This document shows positions 1,145 through 33,755 of a stretch of DNA of 40,381 bases, piece by piece. The DNA is from Sinomicrobium pectinilyticum (GTDB lineage: Bacteria; Bacteroidota; Bacteroidia; Flavobacteriales; Flavobacteriaceae). The position numbers were made by a program, and so were the translations under genes. Position 1 is the stretch's first letter; each line of letters opens with the position of its first letter. The stretch lies in NCBI RefSeq assembly GCF_003725735.1, contig NZ_RJTM01000169.1, positions 1-40,381 of the forward strand, given 5' to 3'. The notes under the pieces were generated by a model that searched no databases, was not told the DNA's origin, and saw only the letters and a program-made list of their open reading frames with translations.

Positions 1145-1171
1145 CAAATATATAAGAACTTTTCGTTGCAA
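1145..1171 (-). promoter_or_regulatory. Candidate Bacteroidota promoter for the AraC regulator
   Basis: On the minus strand, a TTG (1171-1169) is followed after 16 bases by TATATTTG (1152-1145), a perfect match to the TAnnTTTG -7 element. The spacing is slightly short compared with the usual 17-23. It lies about 50 bp upstream of the ATG, a sensible leader length. Confidence 0.45.
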
Positions 1172-1179
1172 AAACCATT

Positions 1180-1511: not shown

Positions 1512-3131
1512 TTGGAACGATTTTTTAAAATACACCCTAAGGACAACGTAGTTGTGGCCCTTACAGATCTGAACAAAAATGACAAGGTAACCGTAGACGG
1601 TAAAGAACTGGAACTGGCAGCAGATGTCCCTGTGAAGCACAAATTTACACTGGTGCCGATGAAAGAAGGAGACACTGTATATATGTACGGCGTTCCTGTG
1701 GGGAAGGTGGTTGTTTCACTTTCTGCCGGAAGTATGCTTACTACGGAGAATACCCGGCATGTGGCGGCGCCTTATCAGATAGGCAGACAGGAGTATAAAT
1801 ATGAGCAGCCTGCCGTAGATAAGTTTGCCACCCGTACTTTTCAGGGATTTCACAGGAAAGACGGCCAGGTGGGTACCGGAAATTACTGGCTCTTTGTGCC
1901 ATTGGTTTTTTGCCAGAACCGGAACCTGAAGGTCTTACAAGAGGCTTTGGAAACCGGATTGGGATTCCGCAAGGAAAATCCATACAAACTCCTGGTACGG
2001 GAGCTTGCGGGGAAGTTCAGGGGGACAGACAGGGAGGCGGAAAACATCATAGAAACACCCAAAATATTCCCGAATATAGACGGTATTAAATTCCTTGTCC
2101 ATGAAGGGGGATGTGGAGGTACAAGACAAGATGCACAGTTATTGGTCAACCTGCTCGCAGGTTATATCCGGCATCCTAATGTGGCCGGGGCCACGGTATT
2201 AAGCCTGGGGTGCCAGCATGCCCAGATGTCCATGCTCGAAGAAGCCTTGGGACGGGGAGGAGAAGAGTTGGGTAAGCCATTGCTCTTTTTCGAACAGCAA
2301 AAATACCCGTCAGAGCACGTTATGTTAGAAGAAATCATTCAGGCGACCTTTGATGGCCTGAAAGAAGCAAATAAGAATTCCAGGCAACCCGCGTCACTGA
2401 GTAAACTTACCCTGGGACTGGAATGCGGTGGTTCTGACGGTTTTTCCGGTATTTCCGCCAATCCTTTGATAGGAGTAGTGACAGACCGCATTAATGCTTT
2501 GAAAGGAAAAAGTATCCTCTCCGAATTTCCGGAGTTGTGCGGGGTAGAGCAGGATCTCATAGACCGCTGTGTACGAAGGGAGGCCGCGGAAAAGTTTGTC
2601 CGCCTGATGGAAAATTATGAAGCGAGGGCCCATGAAGTGGGATCCGGCTTTGATATGAACCCTTCGCCGGGGAATATCCGGGACGGACTGATAACGGATG
2701 CCATAAAATCGGCCGGGGCGGCGACAAAAGGAGGGAGAAGCCCTGTAGCCGATGTGCTGGATTACGGCGAATATACTACAAAAGAAGGACTCAGCCTTCT
2801 ATGCACACCGGGTAACGATGTGGAATCCACAACCGGACTTGCCGGTTCGGGAGCAAATATTATCCTTTTTTCCACCGGGCTCGGGACTCCTACCGGGAAT
2901 CCGATATGTCCCGTGGTGAAAATTTCCTCCAACTCTATGCTTCCCCGGAAAATGAAAGATATTATTGACTTTGATGCGGGAAGGCTTTTTTCCGGAGGGT
3001 TGTCGCAGGAAGTACTGGCGGATGAATTGATAGAACTTATCATTGCCGTAGCAAGCGGGGAAAAACAAACCTGTGCCCAGAAGTTGCAACAAGACGATTT
3101 TATTCCATGGAAAAGAGGAATATCTTTGTAA
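1512..3131 (+). CDS. UxaA-family altronate/galactarate-type dehydratase, predicted L-fuconate dehydratase
   Basis: A full-length 539-residue UxaA-family protein. An N-terminal SAF-like domain (about 1-75) is followed by the long catalytic region with family signatures: HEGGCGGTRQD near 200, LGLECGGSDGFSGISANP near 305, and TPGNDVESTTGLAGSGAN near 430. The family removes water from sugar acids to give 2-keto-3-deoxy acids. No uronate genes (uxaB, uxaC, kdgK) are nearby. The operon instead supplies every other step of L-fuconate breakdown, so L-fuconate is the likely substrate. The start is TTG: no in-frame ATG occurs before residue 50 or so, and the SAF domain begins right after the TTG. The UxaA family is firm; the substrate is inferred. 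Confidence 0.85.
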   Translation: MERFFKIHPKDNVVVALTDLNKNDKVTVDGKELELAADVPVKHKFTLVPMKEGDTVYMYGVPVGKVVVSLSAGSMLTTENTRHVAAPYQIGRQEYKYEQPAVDKFATRTFQGFHRKDGQVGTGNYWLFVPLVFCQNRNLKVLQEALETGLGFRKENPYKLLVRELAGKFRGTDREAENIIETPKIFPNIDGIKFLVHEGGCGGTRQDAQLLVNLLAGYIRHPNVAGATVLSLGCQHAQMSMLEEALGRGGEELGKPLLFFEQQKYPSEHVMLEEIIQATFDGLKEANKNSRQPASLSKLTLGLECGGSDGFSGISANPLIGVVTDRINALKGKSILSEFPELCGVEQDLIDRCVRREAAEKFVRLMENYEARAHEVGSGFDMNPSPGNIRDGLITDAIKSAGAATKGGRSPVADVLDYGEYTTKEGLSLLCTPGNDVESTTGLAGSGANIILFSTGLGTPTGNPICPVVKISSNSMLPRKMKDIIDFDAGRLFSGGLSQEVLADELIELIIAVASGEKQTCAQKLQQDDFIPWKRGISL

Positions 3132-3134
3132 ACA

Positions 3135-3161
3135 GCCCTCCGGGTACACCGGGGGCGTTTT
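3135..3161 (+). terminator. Stem-loop just after the dehydratase gene (attenuator or weak terminator)
   Basis: GCCC, a bulged T, CCGG, loop GTACA, then CCGG and GGGC form a GC-rich 8-bp stem, followed by GTTTT. It begins three bases after the stop codon and sits inside the operon. It could lower downstream expression or protect the 3' end of a processed message. Confidence 0.4.
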
Positions 3162-3230
3162 AGATCAAATATTAAAAAACGGCAGACTGCCCTGTAGTTT
3201 ACCGAGGTATAAAAATAAAATAAGTATAAA

Positions 3231-3986
3231 ATGTCAAAAAATGTAATCATCACCGGTGGGGGTTCTGGTATCGGGGCCGCGATCAGTCGCATATTTCTGG
3301 ATAAAGGGCATATCGTTTTTATGCTCGAGAGGAACGTGGAAAGTACAAGGGAAGCCTTTTCAGAATACACAGAAGACAAATTGCACATCTTTCCCTGTGA
3401 TGTCAGTGATCAGGCTAGGGTGGTACAAATTATCGATGATATAGCCGCTTCCGCTACCATTGATGTCCTCATAAATAATGCGGGAATATCCCATATAGGT
3501 ACGGTGGAAACCACTTCCGAAGAAGATATGGACAAGCTTTTTGCAGTCAATGTAAAAGGGGTATATAATTGTATTCATGCCGCAATACCCCATATGAAAA
3601 AAAGTGGAGGAGGGGCCATCCTCAATATGGCATCCATAGCATCTCATGTGGGAATTGCCGATCGTTTTGCTTATTCCATGACCAAAGGGGCCGTACTGGC
3701 TATGACCTATTCGGTGGCCAAAGATTATGTGGCCGACGGTATCCGATGTAACAGTATTTCCCCGGCGAGAGTGCATACGCCGTTTGTAGATGGTTTTCTG
3801 GCTAAGAATTATCCCGGGCAGGAAAAGGAAATGTACGACAAACTGTCGAAGACCCAACCGATCGGGCGAATGGCCAGACCGGACGAAGTAGCGAAACTGG
3901 CCTATTTCCTTTGTTCGGACGATGCCGCTTTCACGACAGGGACCGATTATCCCCTGGACGGCGGGTTCATTAAGTTGAACAGTTAA
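3231..3986 (+). CDS. SDR-family dehydrogenase, predicted 2-keto-3-deoxy-L-fuconate dehydrogenase
   Basis: A classical short-chain dehydrogenase of 251 residues. The Rossmann motif TGGGSGIG lies at about 8-15, NNAG near 83, a catalytic Ser near 137 (NMASIAS), and YSMTK as the catalytic Tyr-x3-Lys near 150. It ends with the usual LDGG motif. It lies between the dehydratase and the FAH-family hydrolase. In the known non-phosphorylative L-fucose pathway, that is where a dehydrogenase oxidises 2-keto-3-deoxy-L-fuconate to the 2,4-diketo acid. The stretch ISPARVHTPFVDGFL fits my memory of SDRs in this role. The other SDR (9821-10603) looks more like the L-fucose dehydrogenase, but the two roles could be swapped. 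Confidence 0.8.
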   Translation: MSKNVIITGGGSGIGAAISRIFLDKGHIVFMLERNVESTREAFSEYTEDKLHIFPCDVSDQARVVQIIDDIAASATIDVLINNAGISHIGTVETTSEEDMDKLFAVNVKGVYNCIHAAIPHMKKSGGGAILNMASIASHVGIADRFAYSMTKGAVLAMTYSVAKDYVADGIRCNSISPARVHTPFVDGFLAKNYPGQEKEMYDKLSKTQPIGRMARPDEVAKLAYFLCSDDAAFTTGTDYPLDGGFIKLNS

Positions 3987-4043
3987 AAAACTGTGCAATA
4001 CGGGGAAATAAGTTAATCAAATAAATTTATAAATACACAACGA

Positions 4044-4904
4044 ATGAAACTATTCAGATTTGGCCCTGAAGGCGAAGAAAAACCAGGAGTAGAATTGCCG
4101 GATGGCAAGCAACTGGATGTAACCGCTTTCGGAGAAGATTATAATGAAGATTTTTTTGAAGGAAATGGTATCGGACGCCTGAAAGCCTGGCTAAAGGAAA
4201 ATCAGGAGAAATGTCACGAAGTACCGGCCGGATTCCGTTTCGGCCCGGCGGTGAAGCGGCCTTCCAAACTGATATGTATTGGTCTGAATTATGCAAAACA
4301 CGCAGCGGAGAGCGGCATGGATGTCCCGAAAGAACCTGTGGTGTTTTTTAAGGCGACTTCCTCTATTGTAGGCCCTAATGACCCTGTCGTGATTCCACGG
4401 GGCTCTGAAAAGACCGATTGGGAAGTGGAACTGGCAGTAGTAATCGGTAAAAAAGCCTCTTATGTAACCAAAGAAGAGGCCATGGACCATGTAGCAGGCT
4501 ATGTGCTGCACAACGATTATAGCGAACGTGCCTATCAGCTGGAACGTGGCGGACAATGGGTCAAAGGAAAAAGCTGCGATACTTTTGCTCCCCTGGGGCC
4601 ATACCTGGTAACTACAGATGAAAAACTTGACCCGCATAACCTGAACCTGTGGCTGAAGGTCAACGGAGAAATGCTGCAAAATTCCAATACTTCCGATTTT
4701 ATTTTTGACATCCCTACGGTAATAAGTTACCTGAGCGAGTTTATGACACTGCTCCCCGGCGATGTGATTTCCACGGGGACTCCGGCCGGAGTGGGGCTCG
4801 GATTTCAACCGCCACGTTATTTAAAACCGGGCGATGTGGTAGAACTGGGTATAGAGGGTCTGGGATCTTCGAAACAGGAAGCTGTGGCCTACAAGGTGCA
4901 ATAA
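4044..4904 (+). CDS. FAH-family hydrolase, predicted 2,4-diketo-3-deoxy-L-fuconate hydrolase
   Basis: A 286-residue fumarylacetoacetate hydrolase-family enzyme. The core begins near 75 (ICIGLNYAKHAAESG). Metal-ligand acids sit in DWEVELAVVIGK and HNDYSER, and KGKSCDTFAPLGP and STGTPAGVG are family landmarks. The predicted reaction splits the 2,4-diketo-3-deoxy sugar acid into pyruvate and L-lactate. That matches the lactate-oxidising genes at the end of the same operon. FAH-family membership is firm. The substrate is inferred from the neighbouring dehydratase, SDR and lactonase. It is cytoplasmic, with no signal peptide. Confidence 0.85.
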   Translation: MKLFRFGPEGEEKPGVELPDGKQLDVTAFGEDYNEDFFEGNGIGRLKAWLKENQEKCHEVPAGFRFGPAVKRPSKLICIGLNYAKHAAESGMDVPKEPVVFFKATSSIVGPNDPVVIPRGSEKTDWEVELAVVIGKKASYVTKEEAMDHVAGYVLHNDYSERAYQLERGGQWVKGKSCDTFAPLGPYLVTTDEKLDPHNLNLWLKVNGEMLQNSNTSDFIFDIPTVISYLSEFMTLLPGDVISTGTPAGVGLGFQPPRYLKPGDVVELGIEGLGSSKQEAVAYKVQ

Positions 4905-4926
4905 TATAGTGGAGAACTAAAGGAAG

Positions 4927-4947
4927 ACCGGGAGTTTTCCCGGTTTT
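4927..4947 (+). terminator. Intercistronic stem-loop after the FAH-family hydrolase gene
   Basis: ACCGGG, loop AGTTTT, CCCGGT, then TTT. The stem is only 6 bp and lies 22 bases after the stop codon, within the operon. It is more likely an attenuating or stabilising hairpin than a full stop. Confidence 0.35.
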
Positions 4948-4992
4948 CCGTCTAAGAGATAAAACCGGCTCTTAAACAGAAAAACACGTCGT

Positions 4993-5817
4993 ATGAATAT
5001 AGATGCCCATCAACATTTCTGGCAATACGATCCTGAAAAAGATGCATGGATAGATGAGACTATGCAGACCATAAGACGGGATTTTATGCCTTCGGACCTG
5101 CAAACCGTTCTGGAAAATAACGGAATGGATGGCTGTGTAGCCGTACAGGCAAGCCAGTCAGAAGAAGAGACACTCTTCCTGCTGGAATGTGCAAGGCAAA
5201 ACCCGTTTATAAAAGCCGTGGTGGGCTGGGCAGACCTGCAGGCCGAAAATATAAAAGAGGTGCTTGCCCGGTTTTCCGAAGATCCCGGTTTCCGGGGAGT
5301 ACGGCACGTTGTTCAGGGAGAACCGGACGATTTTATGTTCCGTCCCGCTTTCCGCAGGGGAATTGCCGAGCTGGAACCACAGGGCCTTACCTACGATATT
5401 CTTGTGTATGCCCGTCAGTTACCGGCCGCCATAGACCTTGTACGTGAATTTCCCGCACAGCGTTTTGTACTGGACCATATAGCCAAGCCCGTAATTTCTG
5501 CAGGTCCGGATAAAGAATGGACCGAAAACATGCGTCTTCTTGCTCAATGTGACAACGTGTACTGTAAACTATCCGGTATGGTCACCGAAACAAGAAACTG
5601 GAAGTGGCAACAGGATGATTTTACACCTTTTCTGGAAATCGTTACGGAAACTTTCGGAACGGACAGGCTCATGTACGGATCGGATTGGCCGGTATGCCTG
5701 CTTGCTGCGGAATATGAGAAAGTGCTGAAGATTGTACGTGATTTTTACAGCGAAAGCGAACTACCAAAGGTCATGGGGCAAAATGCCATACGGTTTTATG
5801 GTATTCCTGAAGAATAA
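4993..5817 (+). CDS. Amidohydrolase-family lactonase, predicted L-fuconolactone hydrolase
   Basis: A 274-residue member of the amidohydrolase family 2 (COG3618) group. The metal-binding HxH motif is DAHQHFW at residues 4-10. A later conserved His is in FVLDHIAKP (about 158-166), and the catalytic Asp motif is YGSDWP (about 235). Characterised relatives open sugar lactones, including L-fucono- and L-rhamnono-lactone. Placed between the FAH-like hydrolase and the fucosidases, it most likely converts L-fuconolactone to L-fuconate. The ATG start gives the HxH motif its usual near-N-terminal position. Confidence 0.83.
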   Translation: MNIDAHQHFWQYDPEKDAWIDETMQTIRRDFMPSDLQTVLENNGMDGCVAVQASQSEEETLFLLECARQNPFIKAVVGWADLQAENIKEVLARFSEDPGFRGVRHVVQGEPDDFMFRPAFRRGIAELEPQGLTYDILVYARQLPAAIDLVREFPAQRFVLDHIAKPVISAGPDKEWTENMRLLAQCDNVYCKLSGMVTETRNWKWQQDDFTPFLEIVTETFGTDRLMYGSDWPVCLLAAEYEKVLKIVRDFYSESELPKVMGQNAIRFYGIPEE

Positions 5818-5849
5818 AACACTGTTAACACAACTAAAACCCAATACTT

Positions 5850-7262
5850 ATGAAAACCTTACAATTCGCAGTATTAACCGCTTTACTGGTTACAAGCTGC
5901 AAGCAAAAACCGAAAGCAGAAGAGAAGAAAGCCGAACCAAAGGAAACGGTAAATTATCTGGAAGAACCGAAAGAAGCTTTTGACGAACGCATGGCCTGGT
6001 GGCGTGATGCCAGGTTCGGGATGTTTATACATTGGGGAGCATATGCCGTACCGGCAGGCAGATACGAAGGAAAGGAAGTCAATGGTATTGGGGAATGGAT
6101 CATGCATAATGTCAAAATCCCCATAGATATATATGAAGGCTATGCAAAGGAATTTAATCCTACAGCTTTTAATGCGGAAGAATGGGTGACCCGGATGAAA
6201 AACGCGGGTATGAAATATATGGTGATCACCTCCAAGCATCATGACGGATTTTGTCTGTGGGATTCCGGGGTTACAGATTACGATATTATTGATTTTTCAC
6301 CCTACGATAAAGATATCCTTAAAGCACTTTCCGATGCCTGTAAAGCACAGGGGGTGAAATTCGGTTTGTACCATTCTATTATGGACTGGCATCATCCCGA
6401 TGCTCAGGCCGATACATATGCGGGAGGGGAACCTTCTGAGAATAATGAGGAACGTTTCGCGGATTATCTGGAGAGCTACCTGAAACCGCAGTTGAAAGAG
6501 CTGGTCGGGAATTACGACCCGGCGATCCTTTGGTTTGACGGGGAATGGGAAAAAGAATTTACCCACGAACAGGGGCAGGAACTTTATCAGTACGTACGCG
6601 AACTTAAACCCGGTATTATCATTAATAATCGTGTGGATAAAGGAAGAAAAGGAATGCAGGGGATGAACAAGGACGATAGTGATTATGCAGGCGATTTCGG
6701 CACTCCCGAACAGGAAATTCTTGATGGTATTTCCGACCTGGACTGGGAATCGTGTATGACCATGAACGATACCTGGGGATATAAAACCGACGACCGGAAC
6801 TGGAAGTCTTCCGCGGAACTGGTCCGTAACCTCGTGGATGCAGCGGCCAAAGGTGGGAATTACCTACTGAATATAGGACCGGATGCCAGCGGGAACATCC
6901 CGGAAGCAAGTATGAAAAGACTTGAAGATATCGGGGAATGGATGAAAGTTAACGGAGAAGCCGTGTATGGTACGGAAAGCCCCAAGTCCGGATATAAAGA
7001 AGGCGATAATATACGTTTCACCAGGAAAAAGGGTACGCCTTTTTATTACGCCGTTACTTTTGAAAAACCCGGAAAAACTTTTCAAGTGGAAAAACTGAAA
7101 CCGGAAGAAGGTTCGGAAGTGGTTCTGCTCGGTTATGAACAACCTTTGGAATGGAACTATAGTGAAGAATCGGGGTTAACAATCTCAGTTCCGGAGGAAG
7201 CGTTACGGGCAACCGGGAATACACTGGCCTGGACATTCAAAATAAAAATGGTAACGGATTAA
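5850..7262 (+). CDS. GH29 alpha-L-fucosidase, lipoprotein
   Basis: A 470-residue GH29 enzyme with a lipoprotein signal (LVTSC, Cys17), so it is probably anchored to the cell envelope. GH29 hallmarks are FGMFIHWGAYAVPAG near 57, TSKHHDGFCLWDS near 130 and YHSIMDWHHPDA near 175. The likely nucleophile is Asp230 in ILWFDGEWE. A beta-sandwich domain follows to the C terminus. It releases L-fucose from fucosylated glycans by a retaining mechanism. It starts 32 bp after the lactonase gene and is followed 15 bp later by GH95, so the two fucosidases are co-transcribed with the catabolic genes. Confidence 0.93.
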   Translation: MKTLQFAVLTALLVTSCKQKPKAEEKKAEPKETVNYLEEPKEAFDERMAWWRDARFGMFIHWGAYAVPAGRYEGKEVNGIGEWIMHNVKIPIDIYEGYAKEFNPTAFNAEEWVTRMKNAGMKYMVITSKHHDGFCLWDSGVTDYDIIDFSPYDKDILKALSDACKAQGVKFGLYHSIMDWHHPDAQADTYAGGEPSENNEERFADYLESYLKPQLKELVGNYDPAILWFDGEWEKEFTHEQGQELYQYVRELKPGIIINNRVDKGRKGMQGMNKDDSDYAGDFGTPEQEILDGISDLDWESCMTMNDTWGYKTDDRNWKSSAELVRNLVDAAAKGGNYLLNIGPDASGNIPEASMKRLEDIGEWMKVNGEAVYGTESPKSGYKEGDNIRFTRKKGTPFYYAVTFEKPGKTFQVEKLKPEEGSEVVLLGYEQPLEWNYSEESGLTISVPEEALRATGNTLAWTFKIKMVTD

Positions 7263-7277
7263 CTCCCTGTTTTACAC

Positions 7278-9671
7278 ATGAAAAAAAATAAGTACATAAA
7301 AGTATGGGTATATACTATTTTGGGTATTGCTCTTCTTTCCTGTAACCGGAAAGCGGATACAAAAGACATTGCAGACGCAAAAGTGCAAAAGACGGGTGAA
7401 TTCTGGTACCGCCAGCCTGCAAAAGAATGGATGGAAGCCCTCCCTGTGGGAAACGGACGTTTCGGGGCTATGGTTTTCGGCGATCCGTCACACGAAAGAA
7501 TTCAGTTAAATGAAGATTCTATGTGGCCGGGTGGCCCTGACCTTGGGGACTCGAAAGGTACCGTTGAAGATCTGGAGTATCTCCGTGAACTTTTAAAAGA
7601 AGGGAAAACTCACGAAGCGGATAAGGAGATCGTAGAGCGTTTTTCTTATAAAACAATTACCAAATCACACCAAACAATGGGCGATTTGTATATAGATTTC
7701 GAAGGAGATAAAAACATAAAGGATTACAGGCGTTCCCTGAACCTGGACAATGCCGTGGTTTCGGTGGAATACACGGCAGACGGAAATACCTATACGGAAA
7801 AAGTATTTGCTTCCGCTGTGGACGATGTACTGGTTATAGAACTTACGACCACGGCAGAAAAAGGAATGGACCTTAGCCTGAAACTGGATCGTCCCGAAGA
7901 TCACGGACATCCTACCGTATCCGTTTCTGCTTTGCCATCCGGAGAACTCAGTATGAAAGGAACCGTAACACAATACGGGGGTGCAGTGGGTTCCGAACCG
8001 CATTCTATGGATTACGGCGTTGATTTTGAAACAAGGCTGCGGGTAAAACATGAATCAGGTACTGTAGAAGCAGATAAAGGGGTATTGCGCCTGGCAAATG
8101 TAAAAAGGGCTACCTTGCTCCTTGCCGGGGCCACGTCCTTTTACCATGACAATTACGAAGAACAAAATACCAAGACACTTGATGCGGTTCGGAACAAGAC
8201 TTTTGAAGAACTGCTGGAATCACATATAGCCGATTACAGGAAATTTTACGACCGCGTGACCCTGGACCTGGGAGGGAAGGAATTGGATTCTTTGCCTACG
8301 GACGAAAGGCTGGCCAGGATCAAAGAAGGTAACGATGATCCCGGCCTTATGGCAAAACTGTTCCAGTACGGGCGATACCTACTTATTTCTTCTTCCCGTC
8401 CGGGGACCAATCCGGCTAACCTGCAAGGTATATGGAATGAGCACATCGAGGCCCCGTGGAATGCGGACTATCATCTCAACATAAACCTCCAGATGAATTA
8501 TTGGCCTGCCGAGGTCACTAATTTAAGCGAACTGCACCAACCGTTATTTGATTTTGGCGACAGGTTGATCGAGCGTGGTAAAATTACCGCTAAAGAACAG
8601 TACGGCATAAACAGGGGAGCAGTAGTACATCATACGACGGATTTATGGGCACCTGCATGGATGCGTGCGGAAAAACCGTACTGGGGCTCCTGGATACACG
8701 GGGGAGGATGGCTTGCACAGCATTATTGGGAACATTACCAGTTTACAGGAGACACCGCTTTTCTGCGCAACCGGGCTTACCCGGCCTTAAAGGCCTTTGC
8801 AGGATTTTACCTGGACTGGCTGGTGCAGGATAAAAACGGTAAATGGATATCGGTGCCGGAAACCTCCCCGGAAAACTCTTATATAGCAGAAGACGGAAAA
8901 GCTGCTGCCGTATCTGCCGGATCGGCGATGGGGCACCAGATCATCGCGGAAGTCCTGGAAAATACACTTAGTGCGGCAAAAGATCTGGGGATAGAAAATG
9001 AATTTACCGAAGAAGTAAAGCAAAAGAGAAAGGACCTGTTTCCGGGCGTTGTTGTAGGGGAGGACGGGAGGATACTGGAATGGAACCATCCGTATGAAGA
9101 AGCGGAAAAAGGACACAGGCATATGTCACACCTCTATGCATTGCACCCGGGAAGCAAGATCACTTCTGCCGATAAAGAGGCGTTTGAAGCAGCGAAAAAG
9201 ACCATCGGATATCGCCTGGAACACGGCGGAGCGGGGACCGGCTGGAGCAGGGCGTGGATGATCAATTTTAATGCCCGCCTGTTCGATAAGGTTTCGGCAG
9301 AAGAAAACATCAGGAAATTTTTACAGATATCCATAGCGGATAACATGTTCGATATGCATCCGCCCTTTCAGATAGACGGTAATTTCGGGTATACCGCCGG
9401 TGTTGCCGAGTTGCTGATGCAGTCGCACGAAGGTTTTATCCGTCTGTTACCTGCTCTTCCGGCAAACTGGCCTGACGGCAAAGTAGAAGGACTTGTGGCG
9501 CGGGGGAACATTATTGTGGATATAATTTGGGAAGACGGTAAACTTACGGCCTTGGCCCTGTATTCTGAACAGGCCAGGACATGTAAACTATGGTATGACG
9601 GAACCGAGAAAGAGGTACAACTTCCGGAAGGGGAAAAAGTATGGTTTGGGCCGGATCTGAAAAAGGAGTAA
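7278..9671 (+). CDS. GH95 alpha-L-fucosidase, lipoprotein
   Basis: A 797-residue GH95 enzyme with a lipobox (ALLSC, Cys22). The N-terminal domain starts WYRQPAKEWMEALPVGNGRFGAMVFG, which is typical of GH95. The (alpha/alpha)6 barrel carries NINLQMNYWPAE with Asn401/Asn403, SPEN with Glu532, and FQIDGNFG with Asp700. These match the inverting catalytic set described for Bifidobacterium AfcA. GH95 usually removes alpha-1,2-linked fucose and sometimes galactose, so it complements the retaining GH29 enzyme upstream. The product would feed the FucP permease encoded 1 kb further on. Confidence 0.93.
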   Translation: MKKNKYIKVWVYTILGIALLSCNRKADTKDIADAKVQKTGEFWYRQPAKEWMEALPVGNGRFGAMVFGDPSHERIQLNEDSMWPGGPDLGDSKGTVEDLEYLRELLKEGKTHEADKEIVERFSYKTITKSHQTMGDLYIDFEGDKNIKDYRRSLNLDNAVVSVEYTADGNTYTEKVFASAVDDVLVIELTTTAEKGMDLSLKLDRPEDHGHPTVSVSALPSGELSMKGTVTQYGGAVGSEPHSMDYGVDFETRLRVKHESGTVEADKGVLRLANVKRATLLLAGATSFYHDNYEEQNTKTLDAVRNKTFEELLESHIADYRKFYDRVTLDLGGKELDSLPTDERLARIKEGNDDPGLMAKLFQYGRYLLISSSRPGTNPANLQGIWNEHIEAPWNADYHLNINLQMNYWPAEVTNLSELHQPLFDFGDRLIERGKITAKEQYGINRGAVVHHTTDLWAPAWMRAEKPYWGSWIHGGGWLAQHYWEHYQFTGDTAFLRNRAYPALKAFAGFYLDWLVQDKNGKWISVPETSPENSYIAEDGKAAAVSAGSAMGHQIIAEVLENTLSAAKDLGIENEFTEEVKQKRKDLFPGVVVGEDGRILEWNHPYEEAEKGHRHMSHLYALHPGSKITSADKEAFEAAKKTIGYRLEHGGAGTGWSRAWMINFNARLFDKVSAEENIRKFLQISIADNMFDMHPPFQIDGNFGYTAGVAELLMQSHEGFIRLLPALPANWPDGKVEGLVARGNIIVDIIWEDGKLTALALYSEQARTCKLWYDGTEKEVQLPEGEKVWFGPDLKKE

Positions 9672-9678
9672 GTAATAG

Positions 9679-9711
9679 CCGTTACTTTCCGAAATCCGTT
9701 TCGGATAACGG
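9679..9711 (+). promoter_or_regulatory. Strong stem-loop between the GH95 and L-fucose dehydrogenase genes
   Basis: TCCGAAA, loop TCCG, TTTCGGA forms a 7-bp stem. It is extended past a small internal loop by CCGTT/AACGG. It starts 7 bases after the GH95 stop. No T-tract follows, so it is more likely an mRNA-stability or processing hairpin than a terminator. About 110 bp of AT-rich DNA follows before the next gene and could hold an internal promoter. Confidence 0.4.
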
Positions 9712-9820
9712 AATAAAACAATATAAAACACAAATGTTAAATCGTTAATATTAGGGCACAGAAATTTTTTTTAAGCTAATTTTAGCCCTTAAATTGTGCC
9801 GGAAACAGGAAAATGAAGGT

Positions 9821-10603
9821 ATGAACTTACATTTAGAGCAAAAAGTGATTATAGTAACCGGGGGAGCCAAAGGCATCGGTTACGGAATATGTGAAGTATT
9901 GGCAGAAGAAGGGGCATTCCCGGTAATTGTGGGGAGAAATGAAGAGGACAATACCAGAGCAGTAAACTCCATTAACGAAAAAGGAGGAAAAGCCTATTCC
10001 CTCATAGGGGAATTGACGGAACCACAGGCATGTAAAGATGCCATCGAGAATGTACTGGAAAAATTCGGAAGGATAGACGGCCTTGTCAATAATGCGGGAG
10101 TCAATGATGGGGTTAGTCTGGAAAACGGTTCGTATGAAAGTTTTATAGCATCTATCAACAAAAACCTTACCCATTATTATCTCATGGCTCACTATGCATT
10201 GCCGGAGTTGAAAAAAACAAAAGGAGCTATTGTAAATATAGGTTCAAAAACCTCCCTCACAGGACAGGGCGGTACTTCGGGTTATGCCGCAGCCAACGGG
10301 GGACGGAATGCACTTACCAGGGAATGGGCGGTGGAATTGCTTCCTTATGGTATAAGGGTCAATGCCGTGATTGTATCCGAATGTTATACGCCGTTATATG
10401 AAAAATGGATAAAGACATTCCCGGACCCGGAGGGGAAACTAAGTGCCATTACAGAGAAAATCCCCCTGGAAAACCGTATGACCACGGCTGAGGAAATAGC
10501 CAATGCCGTAGCATTTTTGTTATCGGAGAAATCCAGTCATACCACCGGACAGCTCGTATTCGTAGACGGAGGATACGTGCACCTGGACAGGGCTTTAACC
10601 TGA
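9821..10603 (+). CDS. SDR-family enzyme, predicted L-fucose dehydrogenase
   Basis: A 260-residue SDR starting at ATG 9821. An earlier in-frame TTG at 9794 would only add a non-conserved tail. TGGAKGIG (about 12-19) and NNAG (about 91) form the cofactor site. Ser is present in NIGSKTS. The C terminus VDGGYVHLDRALT recalls characterised L-fucose dehydrogenases of the Burkholderia type. The expected reaction is L-fucose plus NAD(P)+ to L-fuconolactone, feeding the lactonase. The catalytic Tyr-x3-Lys reads YAAAN here, so the Lys is replaced by Asn. That could be normal for this subgroup or mark altered activity. It lies 62 bp before fucP. Confidence 0.78.
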   Translation: MNLHLEQKVIIVTGGAKGIGYGICEVLAEEGAFPVIVGRNEEDNTRAVNSINEKGGKAYSLIGELTEPQACKDAIENVLEKFGRIDGLVNNAGVNDGVSLENGSYESFIASINKNLTHYYLMAHYALPELKKTKGAIVNIGSKTSLTGQGGTSGYAAANGGRNALTREWAVELLPYGIRVNAVIVSECYTPLYEKWIKTFPDPEGKLSAITEKIPLENRMTTAEEIANAVAFLLSEKSSHTTGQLVFVDGGYVHLDRALT

Positions 10604-10665
10604 GAAACGATCAACCCATAGCTATACCCAGAATCAATCAGTTTTAATTTAAAATCCATACTATA

Positions 10666-11970
10666 GTGAAGAAAGACACATTACCCCCTGTGGTTTCCAG
10701 GAAAAACCTTATTCCGTTTATTTTAGTTACTTCCTTATTTGCCCTCTGGGGTTTTGCCAATGCAGTTACGGACCCTATGGTACAGGCATTTAAAAAGGTC
10801 CTGGAACTCAGTAATTCCCAGGCGGCATGGGTACAGATGGCATTTTACGGCGGTTATTTTTGTATGGCGCTGCCCGCGGCGCTGTTTGTGAGAAAGTATT
10901 CTTATAAGACCGGAGTGCTTATAGGGCTTGCCCTGTATGCCGGAGGGGCCTTACTGTTCTACCCGGCAGCAATTACGGAAAAATTCTGGTTCTTTTGTCT
11001 CGGCCTGTATATTCTCACTTTCGGCCTGGCATTCCTGGAAACAACGGCAAACCCTTACATCCTTGCCATGGGCGACGCCAGGACTGCAACGCAAAGGCTG
11101 AACCTGGCCCAGGCATTCAATCCCCTCGGCCTGGTATTGGGGCTACTGGTAGCCCAGCAATTTGTATTGCGAAAACTGCAATCGGTAGATGTGGAGGATT
11201 TCGGCGCGCTTGACGAAGCTACTAAAATAATGATACGTACTTCCGATCTTATGGTGATACGGGACCCTTACGTGGGGCTCGGGCTGGTGATTATTGCGGT
11301 GTTTGTACTTATCATAGTGAGCAAAATGCCACAGGTGAGGGACGAAGGCGGCATTCCGGGACTTGCAGAGACGTTCTCCGGGCTTTTCAAAAATAAGAAA
11401 TATACCTTAGGAGTACTTGCCCAGGTGCTCTATGTAGGCGCGCAGATCATGTGCTGGACATATATTTACCAATATGCCGAGGCTATTGGTGTAAGCAGTG
11501 ACGATGCCGCCTATTACCAGTTCATAGCCTTTATCCTCTTCCTGATAGGCAGGGCCATAGGTACCTATATGCTACGGTTTATGAGTTCCGGAAAACTGCT
11601 GATGCTGTTCGCTTTTCTGGGGATTGCTTTTTCTCTGGGTACGATCTGGATAGAAGGTATTTCAGGCCTTTACTGCATCGTGGGGATTTCTTTTGCCATG
11701 TCTCTCATGTTCCCTACAATCTATGGTATCGCACTGGAAGGCCTTAGCGAAGAAGAGTCTAAAATAGGGGCTGCCGGCCTGGTAATGGCCATTGTAGGAG
11801 GAGCTTTAATGCCCCAGTTACAGGCACTTATTATAGATATAGGAGGTGCCGGTGTAGCAGATGTTACCATAGCCGGGGTACCCGAAGTGAATTTTTCATT
11901 CATATTACCCCTCCTGTGTTTTGTCTATATCAGTGGTTATGGTAAATGGGTGCATAATAAAGTGTATTAA
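10666..11970 (+). CDS. fucP: FucP-type L-fucose permease (MFS)
   Basis: A 434-residue major facilitator with about 12 membrane segments. It belongs to the FucP family: N-terminal FALWGFANAVTDPMVQAFKK (the helix carrying the WGFxN...D signature), then WVQMAFYGGYF, and FLETTANPYILAMG in the middle. FucP imports L-fucose with protons across the inner membrane. The start is GTG at 10666, giving MKKDTLPP just before the first helix. It follows the predicted L-fucose dehydrogenase and precedes the mutarotase, as expected for the uptake step. A long soluble loop lies near 170-190. FucP relatives also carry other sugars, so the substrate rests partly on context. Confidence 0.9.
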   Translation: MKKDTLPPVVSRKNLIPFILVTSLFALWGFANAVTDPMVQAFKKVLELSNSQAAWVQMAFYGGYFCMALPAALFVRKYSYKTGVLIGLALYAGGALLFYPAAITEKFWFFCLGLYILTFGLAFLETTANPYILAMGDARTATQRLNLAQAFNPLGLVLGLLVAQQFVLRKLQSVDVEDFGALDEATKIMIRTSDLMVIRDPYVGLGLVIIAVFVLIIVSKMPQVRDEGGIPGLAETFSGLFKNKKYTLGVLAQVLYVGAQIMCWTYIYQYAEAIGVSSDDAAYYQFIAFILFLIGRAIGTYMLRFMSSGKLLMLFAFLGIAFSLGTIWIEGISGLYCIVGISFAMSLMFPTIYGIALEGLSEEESKIGAAGLVMAIVGGALMPQLQALIIDIGGAGVADVTIAGVPEVNFSFILPLLCFVYISGYGKWVHNKVY

Positions 11971-12256
11971 GTCCCCGGTTTAATAAAGTTGAGGACGGAC
12001 AAATAAATGACGATTGTAACGTACCTTTTTACGGTTGAATCCCGGGGGGAGTGTGAAAAATTGACAGACAGAAGACCATAGGATAAGGTATAAAATCCCT
12101 GGAGTATCAGGGAGAGAGTGCCGGTAAAAATAGAAAAGAAGAATCTGGCCTGTATGTTTACGGGTAGATGTACCGATAGTGCGGTAACAGGTAACGACCG
12201 GATATCGTGAGTATAGAAACTGAAATATAAATCATGATGAACCCCGAACTGTAAAA
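11971..12256 (+). other. 286-bp intergenic gap inside the fucose operon
   Basis: No open frame or clear hairpin with a T-tract was found. It is the longest gap inside the operon. A separate promoter for the mutarotase-lutABC part is possible, but I see no convincing TTG/TAnnTTTG pair. Confidence 0.4.
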
Positions 12257-12598
12257 ATGAAACGGTATTGTTTAGCTTTAGATTTGAAAGAGGATGAAGG
12301 CCTTATAGCGGAATATGAAGCCCATCACGAGAAAGTTTGGCCGGAAGTGCTGAAAAATATATGTGAAAGCGGTGTGATAGATATGGAAATATACCGTATA
12401 GAAAACCGGCTGTTCATGATCATGGAGACGGATGATGATTTCAGTTTCAAACAGAAAGAATACCTGGATGCTTCCAGTGAAAAGGTTCAGCAATGGGAAA
12501 AGCTCATGTGGAATTATCAGCAGGGGCTTCCCGGGAGCAGGCCGGGGGAAAAATGGCGTTTGATGGACAAAATATTCGATTTTAAAACAGCATTATAA
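12257..12598 (+). CDS. L-rhamnose/L-fucose mutarotase family protein, predicted L-fucose mutarotase
   Basis: A 113-residue protein of the RhaM/FucM family (COG3254, DUF718). The fold markers are the start MKRYCLALDLK, the AHHEKVWPEVL stretch with conserved His residues at about 24-25, and the closing motif WRLMDKIFDF. The enzyme speeds interconversion of the alpha and beta anomers. L-fucose is the only free sugar this operon handles, so L-fucose is the likely substrate, as reported for a COG3254 protein in a Burkholderia fucose cluster. Its stop codon overlaps the lutA start (TAATG), so the two are translationally coupled. Confidence 0.87.
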   Translation: MKRYCLALDLKEDEGLIAEYEAHHEKVWPEVLKNICESGVIDMEIYRIENRLFMIMETDDDFSFKQKEYLDASSEKVQQWEKLMWNYQQGLPGSRPGEKWRLMDKIFDFKTAL

Positions 12599-13326
12599 TG
12601 ACCGTAGGACTATTTGTACCGTGTTATATAGACCAGTTATACCCGAAAGTGGGGAAGGATACCCTGGAAATCCTGGAAAAGACCGGCTGCAATGTCGTTT
12701 TTTTACAGGACCCTCTTTGTTGCGGGCAGCCTATGGCCAATAGCGGGTATGAAAAAATGACCAGCGGTTTCGAAAAGCCTTTCCTAAAGGCACTTCCCGA
12801 AGTAGATTACCTGGTAACCCCTTCAGCCAGTTGTTCTTATCACCTGTCGCACCACCTGTTAAAACCCCTGGTAAGTGCAGAGGAACTGGCGAAAGTGAAG
12901 GAGCTTACCGAATTTCTTCACGATGTAGCGGGAATAGATAAGCTGAAAGCATCGTTCCCGCATAAAGTAGGCTTACACCTGTCGTGCCATGGGCTAAGAG
13001 GATTAGACCTGGGGACGCCTTCGGAACTGAAAGTGCCCTATTATTCCAAGATAGAAAAAGTACTTTCCGCCGTGGAAGGGCTGGACCTTGTAGTTCCGCC
13101 CAAGGCCGACGAATGCTGTGGGTTCGGGGGAAGTTTTGCCGTATTCGAATCTGCGGTTTCCGTAAAAATGGGAAGTGATAAAATGTGCGGAATGGCGGAA
13201 GCAGAAGTGGAATATGTCGCAGCGACCGATATGTCCTGTCTCATGCACCTGGAAGGGGTTTTCCGTGCGGGAGACAGCCCTATGCGGGTTATGCACATAG
13301 CCGAACTGCTCAATTCGGAGGAATAA
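12598..13326 (+). CDS. lutA: LutA/LldE-type lactate utilisation Fe-S oxidoreductase subunit
   Basis: A 242-residue protein with two CCG domains. Cys9 with CCGQP (Cys41-Cys42) forms the first, and SCHGLRG with ECCGFGGSF the second. This matches LutA (LldE, also like the GlcF C-terminal part), the subunit thought to pass electrons from L-lactate oxidation. It works with LutB and LutC, which follow in order. The placement makes sense because cleavage of diketo-deoxy-fuconate yields L-lactate inside the cell. It starts on the last base of the mutarotase stop codon. Confidence 0.93.
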   Translation: MTVGLFVPCYIDQLYPKVGKDTLEILEKTGCNVVFLQDPLCCGQPMANSGYEKMTSGFEKPFLKALPEVDYLVTPSASCSYHLSHHLLKPLVSAEELAKVKELTEFLHDVAGIDKLKASFPHKVGLHLSCHGLRGLDLGTPSELKVPYYSKIEKVLSAVEGLDLVVPPKADECCGFGGSFAVFESAVSVKMGSDKMCGMAEAEVEYVAATDMSCLMHLEGVFRAGDSPMRVMHIAELLNSEE

Positions 13327-13394
13327 AGACAAACCCGGATCATACGGTTTCCGGAAAACGGGAACTGCAGGGCCAACCGATTAAATGACGAATT

Positions 13395-14777
13395 ATGAAA
13401 GGAACACATGCAAACCTGAGCAAAGATTTTATTACTGGGTCCGATAAAACGGATTGGCATAATAATGCCCTGTGGTTTTTGCGTGCCAAACGGGATATTC
13501 AACGGGATACTATTGAAGACTGGGAGAAATTGCGTTCTACGGCTGCGGCCATTAAAGACCATACTTTGTCCCGGTTGCCGGAATACCTTCAGACCTTCGA
13601 GGAAAATGCAGTGAAGAACGGTATGCAGGTACACTGGGCCTGGGATGATAAGGAACTTCGCGAAATAACAGCAAAAATACTTAAAGATAATAACGCCAGA
13701 TCGGTAGTAAAGAGCAAGTCGATGCTCACAGAAGAGTGCGGGCTCAACCCTTATCTGGAACAAGAAGGTTTTGAAGTAGTAGATACGGACCTGGGAGAGA
13801 GGATAGTGCAACTTCGTAAAGAACACCCCAGTCATATCGTGGTCCCCGCCATCCATCTGAAAAAAGAGGAGGTGAGTGATACCTTTCACGAAAAAATGAA
13901 TACGGAGAAAGGTAATGCAAGTCCGGATTACCTGGCTTCTGTGGCACGTGAGGCACTACGGAAAGATTTTATGAAAGCCGATGCAGCTATTACAGGGGTT
14001 AATTTCGGGGTTGCTGAAGCGGGGGCGGTAGTTGTCTGCACCAACGAAGGCAATGCGGATATGGGGGTACACAGCAAAAAAACGGTGATACATTGTATGG
14101 GGATGGAAAAACTGGTCCCCGGATATGACGAACTGGCCGTTTTTACTCGTCTGCTTGCCCGTTCCGCAACAGGACAGCCGGTTACCGTGTTTACTTCACA
14201 TTACAGGAAACCACGTCCGGAAACTACGGAGCATATAATTATTGTTAATAACAAACGCACCGATATCTTTGCCGATCCGGAATTCCGGCAGGCCATGCGG
14301 TGTATCCGCTGCGGGGCCTGTATGAATACCTGTCCGGTATACAGGCGCTCAGGGGGACATTCTTATCACCATACCGTTCCCGGACCCATTGGTAGTGTAC
14401 TCGCTCCTTTCTACGGAAAAGAAAAGAACAAGGACCTGCCCTTTGCATCAACACTTTGCGGGTCCTGTAATAATGTGTGCCCCGTTAAAATAGATCTGGC
14501 AGGGCTTCTATACCGATGGCGGCAGAAACTCACGGACGAAACCTCTTCGGACATGTCCAAAAAAATAGGAATGGAAGTAGGAAGCAAGATACTGAAGAGC
14601 CGGAAAAAATATGATCTGGCCGGAAGTGTTTTCCGCTGGGTACCGAAAGGACTTTTACAATCGGGCCTTAATCCCTGGAATGTGCATTTGCCGGATGGCA
14701 GGAAAGGGAGAGTGTTCCCGGAAGTTCCCAAAGAGAGTTTCCGGCAGTGGTACAAGAAAAATCAGGAGGATTCGTAA
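13395..14777 (+). CDS. lutB: LutB/LldF-type lactate utilisation Fe-S protein
   Basis: A 460-residue LutB. The N-terminal LUD domain (about 60-290) holds the TGVNFGVAEAGAVVVCTNEGN stretch. Two 4Fe-4S ferredoxin motifs follow: CIRCGACMNTCP (Cys303, 306, 309, 313) and CGSCNNVCP (Cys355, 358, 362). The C-terminal tail is typical of the family. It forms the core of the LutABC L-lactate dehydrogenase that reduces an electron carrier while producing pyruvate. It lies 68 bp after lutA and 21 bp before lutC. Confidence 0.94.
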   Translation: MKGTHANLSKDFITGSDKTDWHNNALWFLRAKRDIQRDTIEDWEKLRSTAAAIKDHTLSRLPEYLQTFEENAVKNGMQVHWAWDDKELREITAKILKDNNARSVVKSKSMLTEECGLNPYLEQEGFEVVDTDLGERIVQLRKEHPSHIVVPAIHLKKEEVSDTFHEKMNTEKGNASPDYLASVAREALRKDFMKADAAITGVNFGVAEAGAVVVCTNEGNADMGVHSKKTVIHCMGMEKLVPGYDELAVFTRLLARSATGQPVTVFTSHYRKPRPETTEHIIIVNNKRTDIFADPEFRQAMRCIRCGACMNTCPVYRRSGGHSYHHTVPGPIGSVLAPFYGKEKNKDLPFASTLCGSCNNVCPVKIDLAGLLYRWRQKLTDETSSDMSKKIGMEVGSKILKSRKKYDLAGSVFRWVPKGLLQSGLNPWNVHLPDGRKGRVFPEVPKESFRQWYKKNQEDS

Positions 14778-14798
14778 AACCGGGTAATGTGAAATCAG

Positions 14799-15377
14799 AT
14801 GGACAGTAAAGAACGAATATTAAGCAGTTTGAAGAATGTTGTGGGGGAGCCGCTTCCCAGACCGGAAATAAACCTTCAATATAAAACAGAAGCACTTACA
14901 GAAATATTTATAGGCGTAGCAGAAGCTTCGGGTACGGAAGTATTTCTCGCTACCGGCGATACCGTGGCAGAAACCATAGAAACCTGGAGTAAGGGAGGCA
15001 ATATACAATCTTCTGTTCCCGCATTGCAGAAAAAATACCCTCTGGTGTTCGACGAGCAGGTCCCTTTTGAAAAAGATAAGATGCCCGGAATATTTGTCAC
15101 TGAAGCGTCATTTGGCGTTGCGGAGAATGCCGCTTTGTGGCTAACGGATCATGAACTCAGTTCCCGGTTGCTGGCCTTTATACCGGAAAGGATAATAGTT
15201 CTCCTCAAAGCCGATACCCTGGTACCTACCATGCACGAGGCCTATGAGAATATAGGGGCCGAACCTCCTTTTGGTTTCGGTCTTTTTATGGCAGGGGCTT
15301 CGAAAACAGCGGATATAGAACAGACGCTCGTAAAGGGTGCACAGGGAGCTAAAGAACTGGCTGTTATACTGTATTGA
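14799..15377 (+). CDS. lutC: LutC/LldG-type lactate utilisation protein (LUD domain)
   Basis: A 192-residue LUD-domain protein. Residues about 85-185 carry the family pattern FVTEASFGVAENAALWLTDHE and end in GAQGAKELAVILY, the classic LUD C terminus. It completes the LutABC set, in the same order as in other bacteria. It is the last gene of the + strand fucose operon and is followed by a strong stem-loop 30 bp downstream. Confidence 0.92.
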   Translation: MDSKERILSSLKNVVGEPLPRPEINLQYKTEALTEIFIGVAEASGTEVFLATGDTVAETIETWSKGGNIQSSVPALQKKYPLVFDEQVPFEKDKMPGIFVTEASFGVAENAALWLTDHELSSRLLAFIPERIIVLLKADTLVPTMHEAYENIGAEPPFGFGLFMAGASKTADIEQTLVKGAQGAKELAVILY

Positions 15378-15406: not shown

Positions 15407-15440
15407 AGGCTGTCCGGTAAAGACAGCCTGTAATTTTTTA
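15407..15440. terminator. Bidirectional intrinsic terminator between lutC and the TlpA-like gene
   Basis: AGGCTGTC (15407-15414), loop CGGTAAA, GACAGCCT (15422-15429), followed on the plus strand by GTAATTTTTT. On the minus strand the hairpin is followed by a T-rich run as well. It sits between two convergent genes, so it probably serves both. Confidence 0.75.
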
Positions 15441-15462: not shown

Positions 15463-16572
15463 CTACATCTCGAAAAGCTCGGCCAGTTTGGTGTCCAGGG
15501 CTTCTCCACGAAGGTCTTTAGCTATTATTTTTCCTTCTTCATCCAGTATAAAGGTTGCAGGTATGGCTTTTACATTATAAAGCTGTGCAATGGGGTCCTG
15601 CCAGAATTTAAGATTGGAAACATGGTGCCATGGAAGCTGGTCCTCGGCGATGGCCTTTTCCCAGTCTTCTTTCTTTCTGTCTAGGGAAACCCCGATGATA
15701 CTCAGGCCCTGGTCCTTGTATTTTTCATAGAGTTTAACCACGTGAGGGTTTTCAGCCCTGCAGGGCTTGCACCAGGCCGCCCAGAAATCGATAATGGTAA
15801 TTTTCCCCTGGGCATCTTTAAGCGCAAGCATCTCTCCTTCGGGAGTCGGTGCGGAAAATTCAGGAGCTACGGAACCTATTGAGACTTTGGTGAGGCTTTC
15901 TATCTGGGTAGCTACCTTTTGTGCAACCGCGGTTTTTTGTATGTCTTCAGACAGGGAAGAAAGTAATTCCTTGATCTCTTCGGGAGTCTGAGAACGGGAC
16001 ATCAGCATCTTTTCCAGTACAAGTGCAGAGATGTAGGAATTGGAATGTTCTTCAACGAATTTTACTTCGTATTCTTTTGCTTCCTCCTGTATATCAGCAT
16101 AGGTATCCTGAAGGGTTGCAATGGTCACGGTATCCCTTTCCTGGGAGGCTTTCATCATTTGCTGGCGGAGAGCATTGATTCTTTCACCTATACCGCGCGT
16201 GCCGGAAATAAACTCATAGAAATCATCGTTAGACGGAGACCCTCCCATTTTTGAAAAGTTAATACTGTCTTTGTACGCTTCTATTTCAATATCTCCGTTT
16301 TCTACGATAACAGGAATGTTTCCTACCTGGTCTATAAGAATAAAATGTATCTCCGGAGTATCTGCTTTTCCGGAAAAGGTAAATTCCCCGCTTTGTACTT
16401 TTGTGGAATCCACATCCACCGGCTGATTGTTTTCATCTGCTTTTTTCATGAACACCTGTTTGCCGTCTTCCACACCGTCTATTTTAACGGTAATCGTGTA
16501 GCTGTCCTTGTTCTGTTTTCCACAGGAAGCAACAATAAGCGCCATAAAAAATAATACGCCGATCTTTTTCAT
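15463..16572 (-). CDS. TlpA-like thioredoxin-family lipoprotein with DUF4369-type N-terminal domain
   Basis: A 369-residue lipoprotein (VASCGKQ, Cys17). The N-terminal 100 residues look like the DUF4369 domain common in Bacteroidota, followed by a helical linker. From about 235 there is a thioredoxin/AhpC-TSA fold with the redox motif WCKPC (Cys268, Cys271) and a cis-Pro segment in VKAIPATFIL. It is expected to work in the periplasm as a thiol-disulfide oxidoreductase. It converges with lutC and has its own promoter, so it is probably not part of fucose metabolism. Confidence 0.88.
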   Translation of the reverse strand: MKKIGVLFFMALIVASCGKQNKDSYTITVKIDGVEDGKQVFMKKADENNQPVDVDSTKVQSGEFTFSGKADTPEIHFILIDQVGNIPVIVENGDIEIEAYKDSINFSKMGGSPSNDDFYEFISGTRGIGERINALRQQMMKASQERDTVTIATLQDTYADIQEEAKEYEVKFVEEHSNSYISALVLEKMLMSRSQTPEEIKELLSSLSEDIQKTAVAQKVATQIESLTKVSIGSVAPEFSAPTPEGEMLALKDAQGKITIIDFWAAWCKPCRAENPHVVKLYEKYKDQGLSIIGVSLDRKKEDWEKAIAEDQLPWHHVSNLKFWQDPIAQLYNVKAIPATFILDEEGKIIAKDLRGEALDTKLAELFEM

Positions 16573-16666: not shown

Positions 16667-16696
16667 TTAGTAATTAAAACGGAAGGGATACTTTTG
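16667..16696 (+). promoter_or_regulatory. Candidate promoter of the LysR-type regulator gene
   Basis: TTA (16667-16669), 19 bases, then a perfect TAnnTTTG as TACTTTTG (16689-16696). The -7 element covers a possible upstream TTG start at 16694. This supports translation from the ATG at 16769 instead. Confidence 0.5.
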
Positions 16697-16768
16697 CTTA
16701 TGACAGTATATTCACGGGCCCGGACCGAAAAGCTCAGGGAAACGGATTTTAATTTATACTTTTACATT

Positions 16769-17665: not shown

Positions 17666-17733
17666 AAGATAGCCATTAGTGATTTCCGGAACTTCTGTAT
17701 TATGAGCAATTTTGCAGGGTAAAATTATTCGTT

Positions 17734-28538: not shown

Positions 28539-28550
28539 AAAAACAGGATC

Positions 28551-30062: not shown

Positions 30063-30097
30063 ATAAATTTGAATTGACCTAAGTGTCAGGCCGGAGA

Positions 30098-30128
30098 ACC
30101 GGAAAATCGGGATAAATGATTTTCCGGT
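30098..30128 (+). promoter_or_regulatory. 11-bp stem-loop between susD and the GH30 gene
   Basis: ACCGGAAAATC, loop GGGATAAAT, GATTTTCCGGT is a perfect 11-bp stem. No T-tract follows, so it may mark an mRNA processing or stability site that keeps SusC/SusD levels above the enzyme. Confidence 0.45.
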
Positions 30129-30170
30129 ATCCCACCTGTAATTTCTAAATGAATAAAAATAAATTTAAAA

Positions 30171-33739: not shown

Positions 33740-33755
33740 ATATGGAACAGGCAAA

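Follow-up and report, generated by a model that had tools for sequence, protein, structure and literature searches.

Which sugar is served by a long gene run of Sinomicrobium pectinilyticum, and by which route is it degraded? The run comprises 12 genes on the plus strand, which fill positions 1512-15377 of contig NZ_RJTM01000169.1. This contig was analyzed as a whole and is referred to as the window (40,381 nt; contig C98 of the 235 contigs of the 5.65 Mb genome, labelled G000). Open reading frames and profile scans matched all twelve genes that a first-pass annotation, made from the sequence alone, had listed for one strand of this segment. The operon very probably encodes all steps of the non-phosphorylating L-fucose pathway known as route 3. 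This reading rests on gene content, family membership, diagnostic residues, conserved gene order and, within the searches made, a lack of rival genes. The assignment of the genes to the steps of a fucose pathway, already proposed in the first-pass annotation, was supported and strengthened by curated cut-offs, the residues of one dehydrogenase, structure matches, locus counts and a phylogenetic tree.

A predicted L-fucose pathway

In the periplasm, the predicted lipoproteins of families GH29 and GH95 would hydrolyze fucosides to release L-fucose, which FucP would bring into the cell and whose anomers FucM would equilibrate. L-Fucose would be converted to L-fuconolactone by a fucose dehydrogenase, and the lactone to L-fuconate by a lactonase. 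From L-fuconate, the UxaA-family enzyme would form L-2-keto-3-deoxyfuconate (L-KDF), whose C4 would be oxidized by a short-chain dehydrogenase/reductase (SDR). A hydrolase of the FAH family would then yield pyruvate and L-lactate from 2,4-diketo-3-deoxyfuconate, and LutABC would convert L-lactate to a further pyruvate. The net outcome would be two pyruvates from one fucose, with no kinase involved.

Two proteins of the run pass curated equivalog cut-offs, namely an SDR identified as L-fucose 1-dehydrogenase (FucDH, 9794-10603; NF052481, 413.8 bits against 300; best solved match 4gkb, E 1.2e-89) and the L-fucose:H+ symporter FucP (10666-11970; TIGR00885, 509.1 bits against 280.4). The likelier start of FucDH is the ATG at 9821; the NF052481 match begins at residue 10. 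For the predicted L-fucono-1,5-lactonase (4993-5817), an Amidohydro_2 protein which we take to be of the COG3618 type, 4dlf was by far the best solved match (E 5.7e-50). The mutarotase (12257-12598; PF05336, 110.2 bits) is of the FucM type within the RhaM family and matches the L-fucose mutarotase 7byu weakly (E 5.9e-6). The predicted 2,4-diketo-3-deoxy-L-fuconate hydrolase (4044-4904) is closest among solved structures to 8gsr, an L-2,4-diketo-3-deoxyrhamnonate hydrolase (E 5.8e-76), and the substrate of that enzyme is described as the same compound as 2,4-diketo-3-deoxyfuconate (PMC11199699).

The most telling enzyme of the run is the SDR at 3231-3986, a predicted L-KDF 4-dehydrogenase. Four residue patterns at positions 148-183-192-214 are described for L-KDF dehydrogenases, and enzymes of all four have been assayed; the type 4 pattern, R-R-F-T, is that of SMI01S_RS12625 from Sphingobacterium mizutaii, which is active on L-KDF (PMC11199699). 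The corresponding residues were read by comparing the family profile with chain 8xwk (1e-20, solved structures) and from an alignment of eight sequences, the SDR of the window and seven relatives (six Bacteroidota, one Ignavibacteria). We treated chain 8xwk as the Herbaspirillum enzyme, since Ser137, Tyr151, Arg148, Thr183, Arg192 and Arg214 all aligned at one constant offset. The SDR carries R145, R180, F189 and T208, that is, the type 4 pattern, and these residues are invariant in all eight aligned sequences; furthermore, it has the Ser-Tyr-Lys set (S135, Y148, K152). It thus shares both its phylum and its dehydrogenase type with the Sphingobacterium enzyme (PMC11199699).

The genes found in the genome of S. 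pectinilyticum do not make up the phosphorylating FucI/FucK/FucA route. No match to FucI (PF02952) was obtained in this genome, while 8 of 60 relatives matched, including the same-genus genomes G002 and G005. No fuculokinase exceeded the cut-off and six proteins remained below it. The two class II aldolases of the genome were considered as FucA and rejected: one is AraD, encoded beside a ribulokinase, the other a fusion of the RhaEW type. Additionally, another amidohydrolase from the lactonase family (31% identity) is encoded on contig C52 (L120:5076-6969), where its gene follows one for a CoA-transferase III and adjoins a RhaT-like transporter gene.

The dehydratase

The gene at 1512-3131 encodes a predicted L-fuconate dehydratase in the role of FucC. 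The protein belongs to the UxaA/GarD family and not to the enolase family (GD_AH_C, 303.9 bits; the TTG start is uncertain); no family model names fuconate dehydratase activity. The first-pass annotation had drawn the route after work on Xanthomonas and Burkholderia. As regards the dehydratase the likeness to Xanthomonas did not hold, since no enolase-type FucD was found in the genome; the five same-genus genomes compared (G001-G005) gave weak partial matches only, and G018 and G035, the positive controls for this search, matched at 81-82%.

A genome scan confirmed 568 loci harboring an FAH relative, and the best 80 of these were examined. A UxaA gene is present in 16 and an enolase-type gene (MR_MLE_C) in 17 of them, both in none and neither in 47; if loci are independent, the chance of finding no overlap is 0.014.

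Could the operon UxaA be an ordinary altronate dehydratase that happens to lie beside fucose genes, fuconate being dehydrated by an enzyme encoded elsewhere? This would fit its identity of 55-56% to a second UxaA of the same genome, which adjoins tagaturonate reductase UxaB and has a PfkB sugar kinase and a 2-keto-3-deoxy-6-phosphogluconate (KDPG) aldolase close by; UxaB and KDPG aldolase are both over cut-off. We regard it as most improbable, because the genome already possesses this UxaB-linked copy, a FucD homologue was not found in it, UxaA and enolase-type FucD never occur together in the 80 loci, and UxaA proteins separate by genomic context in a tree. The tree was built from the examined loci, including 30 of a longer match list. 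Fifty-eight rows passed the coverage filter, which the fragmentary L048 did not, and seven were dropped (six duplicates of the same gene and the truncated L067), leaving 51 sequences. SDR/FAH neighbors, taken as fuconate context, are found for 25 of these and UxaB neighbors for 24; two, from short loci, have neither and none has both. The 49 context labels separate unmixed, with 2 changes on the tree as compared to a mean of 16.7 after shuffling, and none of 500 shuffles gave so low a number. The operon UxaA falls in the fuconate-context clade, apart from the UxaB-linked proteins, and neither linkage to UxaB nor clustering with UxaB-linked UxaAs, the marks of an altronate dehydratase, was found for it.

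The tree was also rooted with five GarD proteins as outgroup, the long row L103 being left out. The UxaB-linked altronate groups were then basal, and the fuconate-context groups formed one clade (99/100) together with a group of apparent L-galactose type; the root is tentative because the branch of the GarD outgroup is very long. Among the residues compared, a single position marks the fuconate context, namely isoleucine 398 (25/25 sequences), the UxaB-linked sequences having methionine there in 22/24 cases. All 51 sequences share five invariant cysteines. Four conserved iron-binding cysteines are described for the UxaA family (PMC6336799).

The group of apparent L-galactose type comes from loci L114-L118 (G006, G007, G023, G022 and G024). 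They contain lactonase and FucP genes, mostly with FucDH and FucM, together with genes for a zinc-dependent alcohol dehydrogenase (Zn-ADH), UxaB and UxaA; SDR and FAH genes are absent. By gene content these clusters look like a route from L-galactose to 2-keto-3-deoxygluconate. Their UxaA clade is nested among the fuconate-context UxaAs in the rooted tree.

It has to be considered whether the pathway of S. pectinilyticum mainly serves D-arabinose or L-galactose, both alike L-fucose at C2-C4, with UxaA acting as D-arabinonate or L-galactonate dehydratase. The UxaA-family enzyme C785_RS13685 of Herbaspirillum prefers D-arabinonate, the relative activity with L-fuconate being 5.6%, and D-altronate and L-galactonate share the C2-C4 configuration with D-arabinonate (PMC6336799). 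Moreover, FucDH, lactonase, FucP and FucM are paired with UxaB, Zn-ADH and UxaA in some related Flavobacteriaceae, as just described. The operon, however, has two genes of fucosidase families, FucP and FucDH over cut-off, and the SDR and FAH genes; it lacks UxaB and Zn-ADH, and the UxaA it encodes is not a member of the clade formed by the clusters with UxaB and Zn-ADH. D-Arabinose or L-galactose as main substrate thus appears improbable, and L-fucose is preferred.

Predicted oxidation of L-lactate

The last three genes encode a LutA-like subunit with CCG domains (12598-13326; PF02754 in two stretches), a LutB-like iron-sulfur LUD subunit (13395-14777; PF02589 and Fer4_8) and a LutC-like LUD subunit (14799-15377; PF02589, 66.1 bits). 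They follow each other in the order of LutABC, namely CCG protein, LUD protein with 4Fe-4S domain and LUD protein. Among the 80 loci, LutA and LutB occur in 10 (Sinomicrobium oceani, five Dyadobacter, three Larkinella and one Ignavibacteria), all of which also show a LutC match. A lactate dehydrogenase of the LldD type, dependent on flavin mononucleotide (FMN; PF01070), is encoded in 16; no locus has both systems and 54 have neither. The recurrent linkage of LutAB or LldD is a stronger point than their mutual exclusion, because it marks L-lactate as a product.

The search of the S. pectinilyticum genome gave no further Lut set, the only other LUD match being a lone gene on contig C129. Likewise, no full-length LldD was found in this genome; hits to FMN_dh were limited to two partial alignments, both short and scoring about 32 bits.

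There is a reasonable, somewhat better than even case for a Bacteroidota family of single-chain L-fuconate dehydratases that derives from UxaA, split from altronate dehydratase and was reused in an L-galactose route with UxaA, UxaB, Zn-ADH and FucDH. Fucose clusters would accordingly exchange two unrelated dehydratases and two unrelated lactate oxidases, the other steps being kept.

Conservation in the genus and points against the pathway

The closest named relative in the genome scan was S. oceani, with an FAH protein 86% identical. A check of related genomes bore out the gene order: all 12 genes are present in order in G003 and G005. G001 has all except GH95, and G002 all except GH95 and LutABC. 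In G004 (3.0 Mb), no lactonase match was found.

Several observations weigh against a complete L-fucose pathway ending in lactate oxidation. The lactonase and the FAH protein fit the expected equivalog models NF052480 and NF053535 below their cut-offs (272.3 against 400 and 341.4 against 500 bits). The LutB subunit scored 412 bits with TIGR00273, short of the cut-off of 444.8, and is therefore called LutB-like. If loci are independent, the chance of finding no overlap between Lut and LldD is 0.09; this exclusivity is weak and could be due to chance. Lactate derived from rhamnose might be a further, or even the main, substrate of LutABC, because the RhaEW-type fusion (Aldolase_II and SDR) is encoded elsewhere in the genome, together with isomerase-like and kinase genes. 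G005, with the whole operon, also has FucI on another contig, and in G002 a gene for an L-fucose isomerase over cut-off and an adjoining gene of the ribulokinase family lie 3' of fucM (L107:924-4399), where others carry LutABC. The genus Sinomicrobium is therefore not uniformly bound to the oxidative fucose route.

The 47 loci with neither dehydratase belong to the same side of the balance. They include cut contigs, loci with SDR and FAH only, FAH genes in other settings, at least one locus with UxaA past the flank and some full clusters; in L075 (G267:C3), a UxaA of the fuconate type is located about 18 kb before FAH, beyond the flank. Full clusters without a dehydratase in reach exist, e.g., Chitinophaga L074 and Larkinella L058, and may have the gene elsewhere or use a dehydratase of a third kind.

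FAH, lactonase, FucDH and FucP genes with no dehydratase of the UxaA or enolase type in the examined stretch were observed in L074, L076, L082, L087 and L091-L093 (Chitinophaga and kin). The same kind of cluster is present in Larkinella (L058, L059 and L061).

Comparison with known systems

Route 3, comprising FucM-FucA-FucB-FucC-FucF-FucG, is described for Xanthomonas, Herbaspirillum and Acidovorax (PMC11199699). The operon has a homologue for every step from L-fucose to pyruvate and L-lactate; it differs from these systems by a UxaA-family enzyme at the FucC step instead of the enolase type and by genes for fucosidases and LutABC alongside those of the pathway. In the L-fucose cluster of Paraburkholderia mimosarum, the fuconate step is also assigned to the UxaA family, from gene context, with the difference that the dehydratase is a two-subunit heteromer there and one chain here (PMC6336799).

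Such clusters are common in Bacteroidota, contrary to the first-pass annotation, which had considered this occurrence unusual. By title, the majority of the best 80 loci come from Bacteroidota, and 54 of the 80 encode one or more of FucDH, lactonase, FucP and FucM beside FAH. FAH proteins being widespread, a class-wide search at 0.001 matched 285 of 295 genomes; 22 genomes besides that of S. pectinilyticum gave full-length matches with 53-70% identity. Two further loci deserve comparison, one of A. marincola HL-49, which we take to be an Algoriphagus and a member of the Bacteroidota, and one of Campylobacter jejuni, whose Cj0483 presumably is of the UxaA family. The fuc locus of A. marincola HL-49 shares FucP and oxidative fucose genes without FucD; in that account the missing dehydratase is left without a candidate and another fucose dehydrogenase, FucOII, is proposed (PMC5507952). 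In the C. jejuni locus, FucX, FucP, a hydrolase, a mutarotase and a dehydratase are likewise present; it has a DapA-type enzyme, and FAH, fucosidase and Lut genes are not among the genes listed (PMC6946681). Within Flavobacteriaceae, Maribacter dokdonensis 62-1 has a fucose importer, a fuconolactonase and a fuconate dehydratase near fucosidases, beside a polysaccharide utilization locus (PMC8072126). The Maribacter and A. marincola HL-49 loci, together with the assayed L-KDF dehydrogenase of Sphingobacterium, further illustrate how common these clusters are (PMC8072126, PMC5507952, PMC11199699).

The combination of both glycosidases with lactate oxidation had also been called unusual. This stood for the complete set, since only three of the examined loci, those of the window, G003 and G005, combine GH29, GH95 and LutABC; GH29 with LutABC is also found in L101. 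It did not stand for lactate oxidation as such, given the linked LutABC in 10 of the 80 loci and the published lldEFG genes (PMC3870299). In RhaR regulons, lldD and lldEFG likewise tie lactate oxidation of the Lut type to a deoxyhexose route ending in pyruvate; unlike here, the sugar is rhamnose, the route is phosphorylating with RhaEW, and the hosts are Actinomycetales and Rhodobacterales (PMC3870299). A published fucose operon with LutABC was not found in a literature search that left most subscription journals outside.

The route is already published, a fuconate dehydratase of the UxaA type was predicted before, and clusters of this kind are frequent in Bacteroidota, so that the first-pass annotation overstated their rarity. 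What is new is a putative Bacteroidota group of UxaA-type fuconate dehydratases combined with a swappable terminal lactate oxidase, which has good genomic support. If true, a set of UxaA-family genes in Bacteroidota would encode fuconate dehydratases, although annotation would name them altronate or galactarate dehydratase, and annotators could spot fucose use in bacteria without FucI. Furthermore, LutABC or LldD in a cluster would predict that lactate is burned and not shed to neighbors.

Transcription of the gene run

The 12 genes are likely transcribed as one unit. The mutarotase gene and lutA overlap by one base, and a bidirectional terminator-like hairpin (15407-15429) is located 3' of lutC, between lutC and a convergent TlpA-like gene (15463-16572). 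A gene for a regulator of the AraC family (245-1093, minus strand; HTH_18 and AraC_binding) is divergent from the run and also adjoins the cluster in G001, G002, G003 and G005; its product probably controls the operon.

At least two transcripts, with the fucose genes separate from fucM-lutABC and the latter controlled on their own for lactate of any source, are possible, if less likely; such an arrangement would be compatible with the enzyme assignments given above. A gap of 286 nt (11971-12256), possibly containing an internal promoter, precedes fucM, and clear likeness to S. oceani in a pairwise alignment of this gap was seen only just before fucM. Additionally, the RhaEW-type locus elsewhere in the genome would also yield L-lactate, for which no second Lut set was seen there, and a terminator-like hairpin on the plus strand (3137-3155) between uxaA and the SDR gene speaks against a single transcript. 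Terminator-like sites in the window are at chance level (19 versus a mean of 19.3), as are promoter-like sites (28 versus 24.6). The gap before fucM, by match coordinates, is only about 60 nt in G005 and about 90 nt in G003 (about 190 nt in G001), no plus-strand terminator-like site was found in the gap of the window, and the overlap of the mutarotase gene with lutA likewise favors a single transcript. A Bacteroidota promoter motif matched once in the window, before the AraC gene (1145-1172, minus strand), with a chance mean of 1.4.

Glycosidases and further loci

GH29 alpha-L-fucosidase is encoded at 5850-7262 (PF01120, 333.7 bits) and the GH95 glycosidase, an alpha-L-fucosidase or alpha-L-galactosidase, at 7278-9671 (PF22124, 549.6 bits); both have lipoprotein-like N-termini as judged by eye. 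Profile scans revealed no SusCD pair or sulfatase among the twelve genes, and a GH30 gene comes after the window's nearest SusCD pair (25371-30062); short or unsulfated fucosides are therefore the likely source of fucose, judging from gene content. The GH30 protein resembles endo-1,6-beta-glucanase (403.7 bits, cut-off 700), and SusC, SusD and GH30 (25371-31580) form a separate locus of the beta-glucan type.

Two other gene sets were observed in the window. A LysR regulator gene adjoins a gene for a putative sulfate exporter of the YeiH family (16694-18726). On the minus strand at 33260-40166, genes for cytochrome c, a GSDH-like protein, an AraC regulator, a Gfo/Idh protein, a molybdopterin-binding dehydrogenase and a [2Fe-2S] subunit form a set that looks like an oxidation unit.

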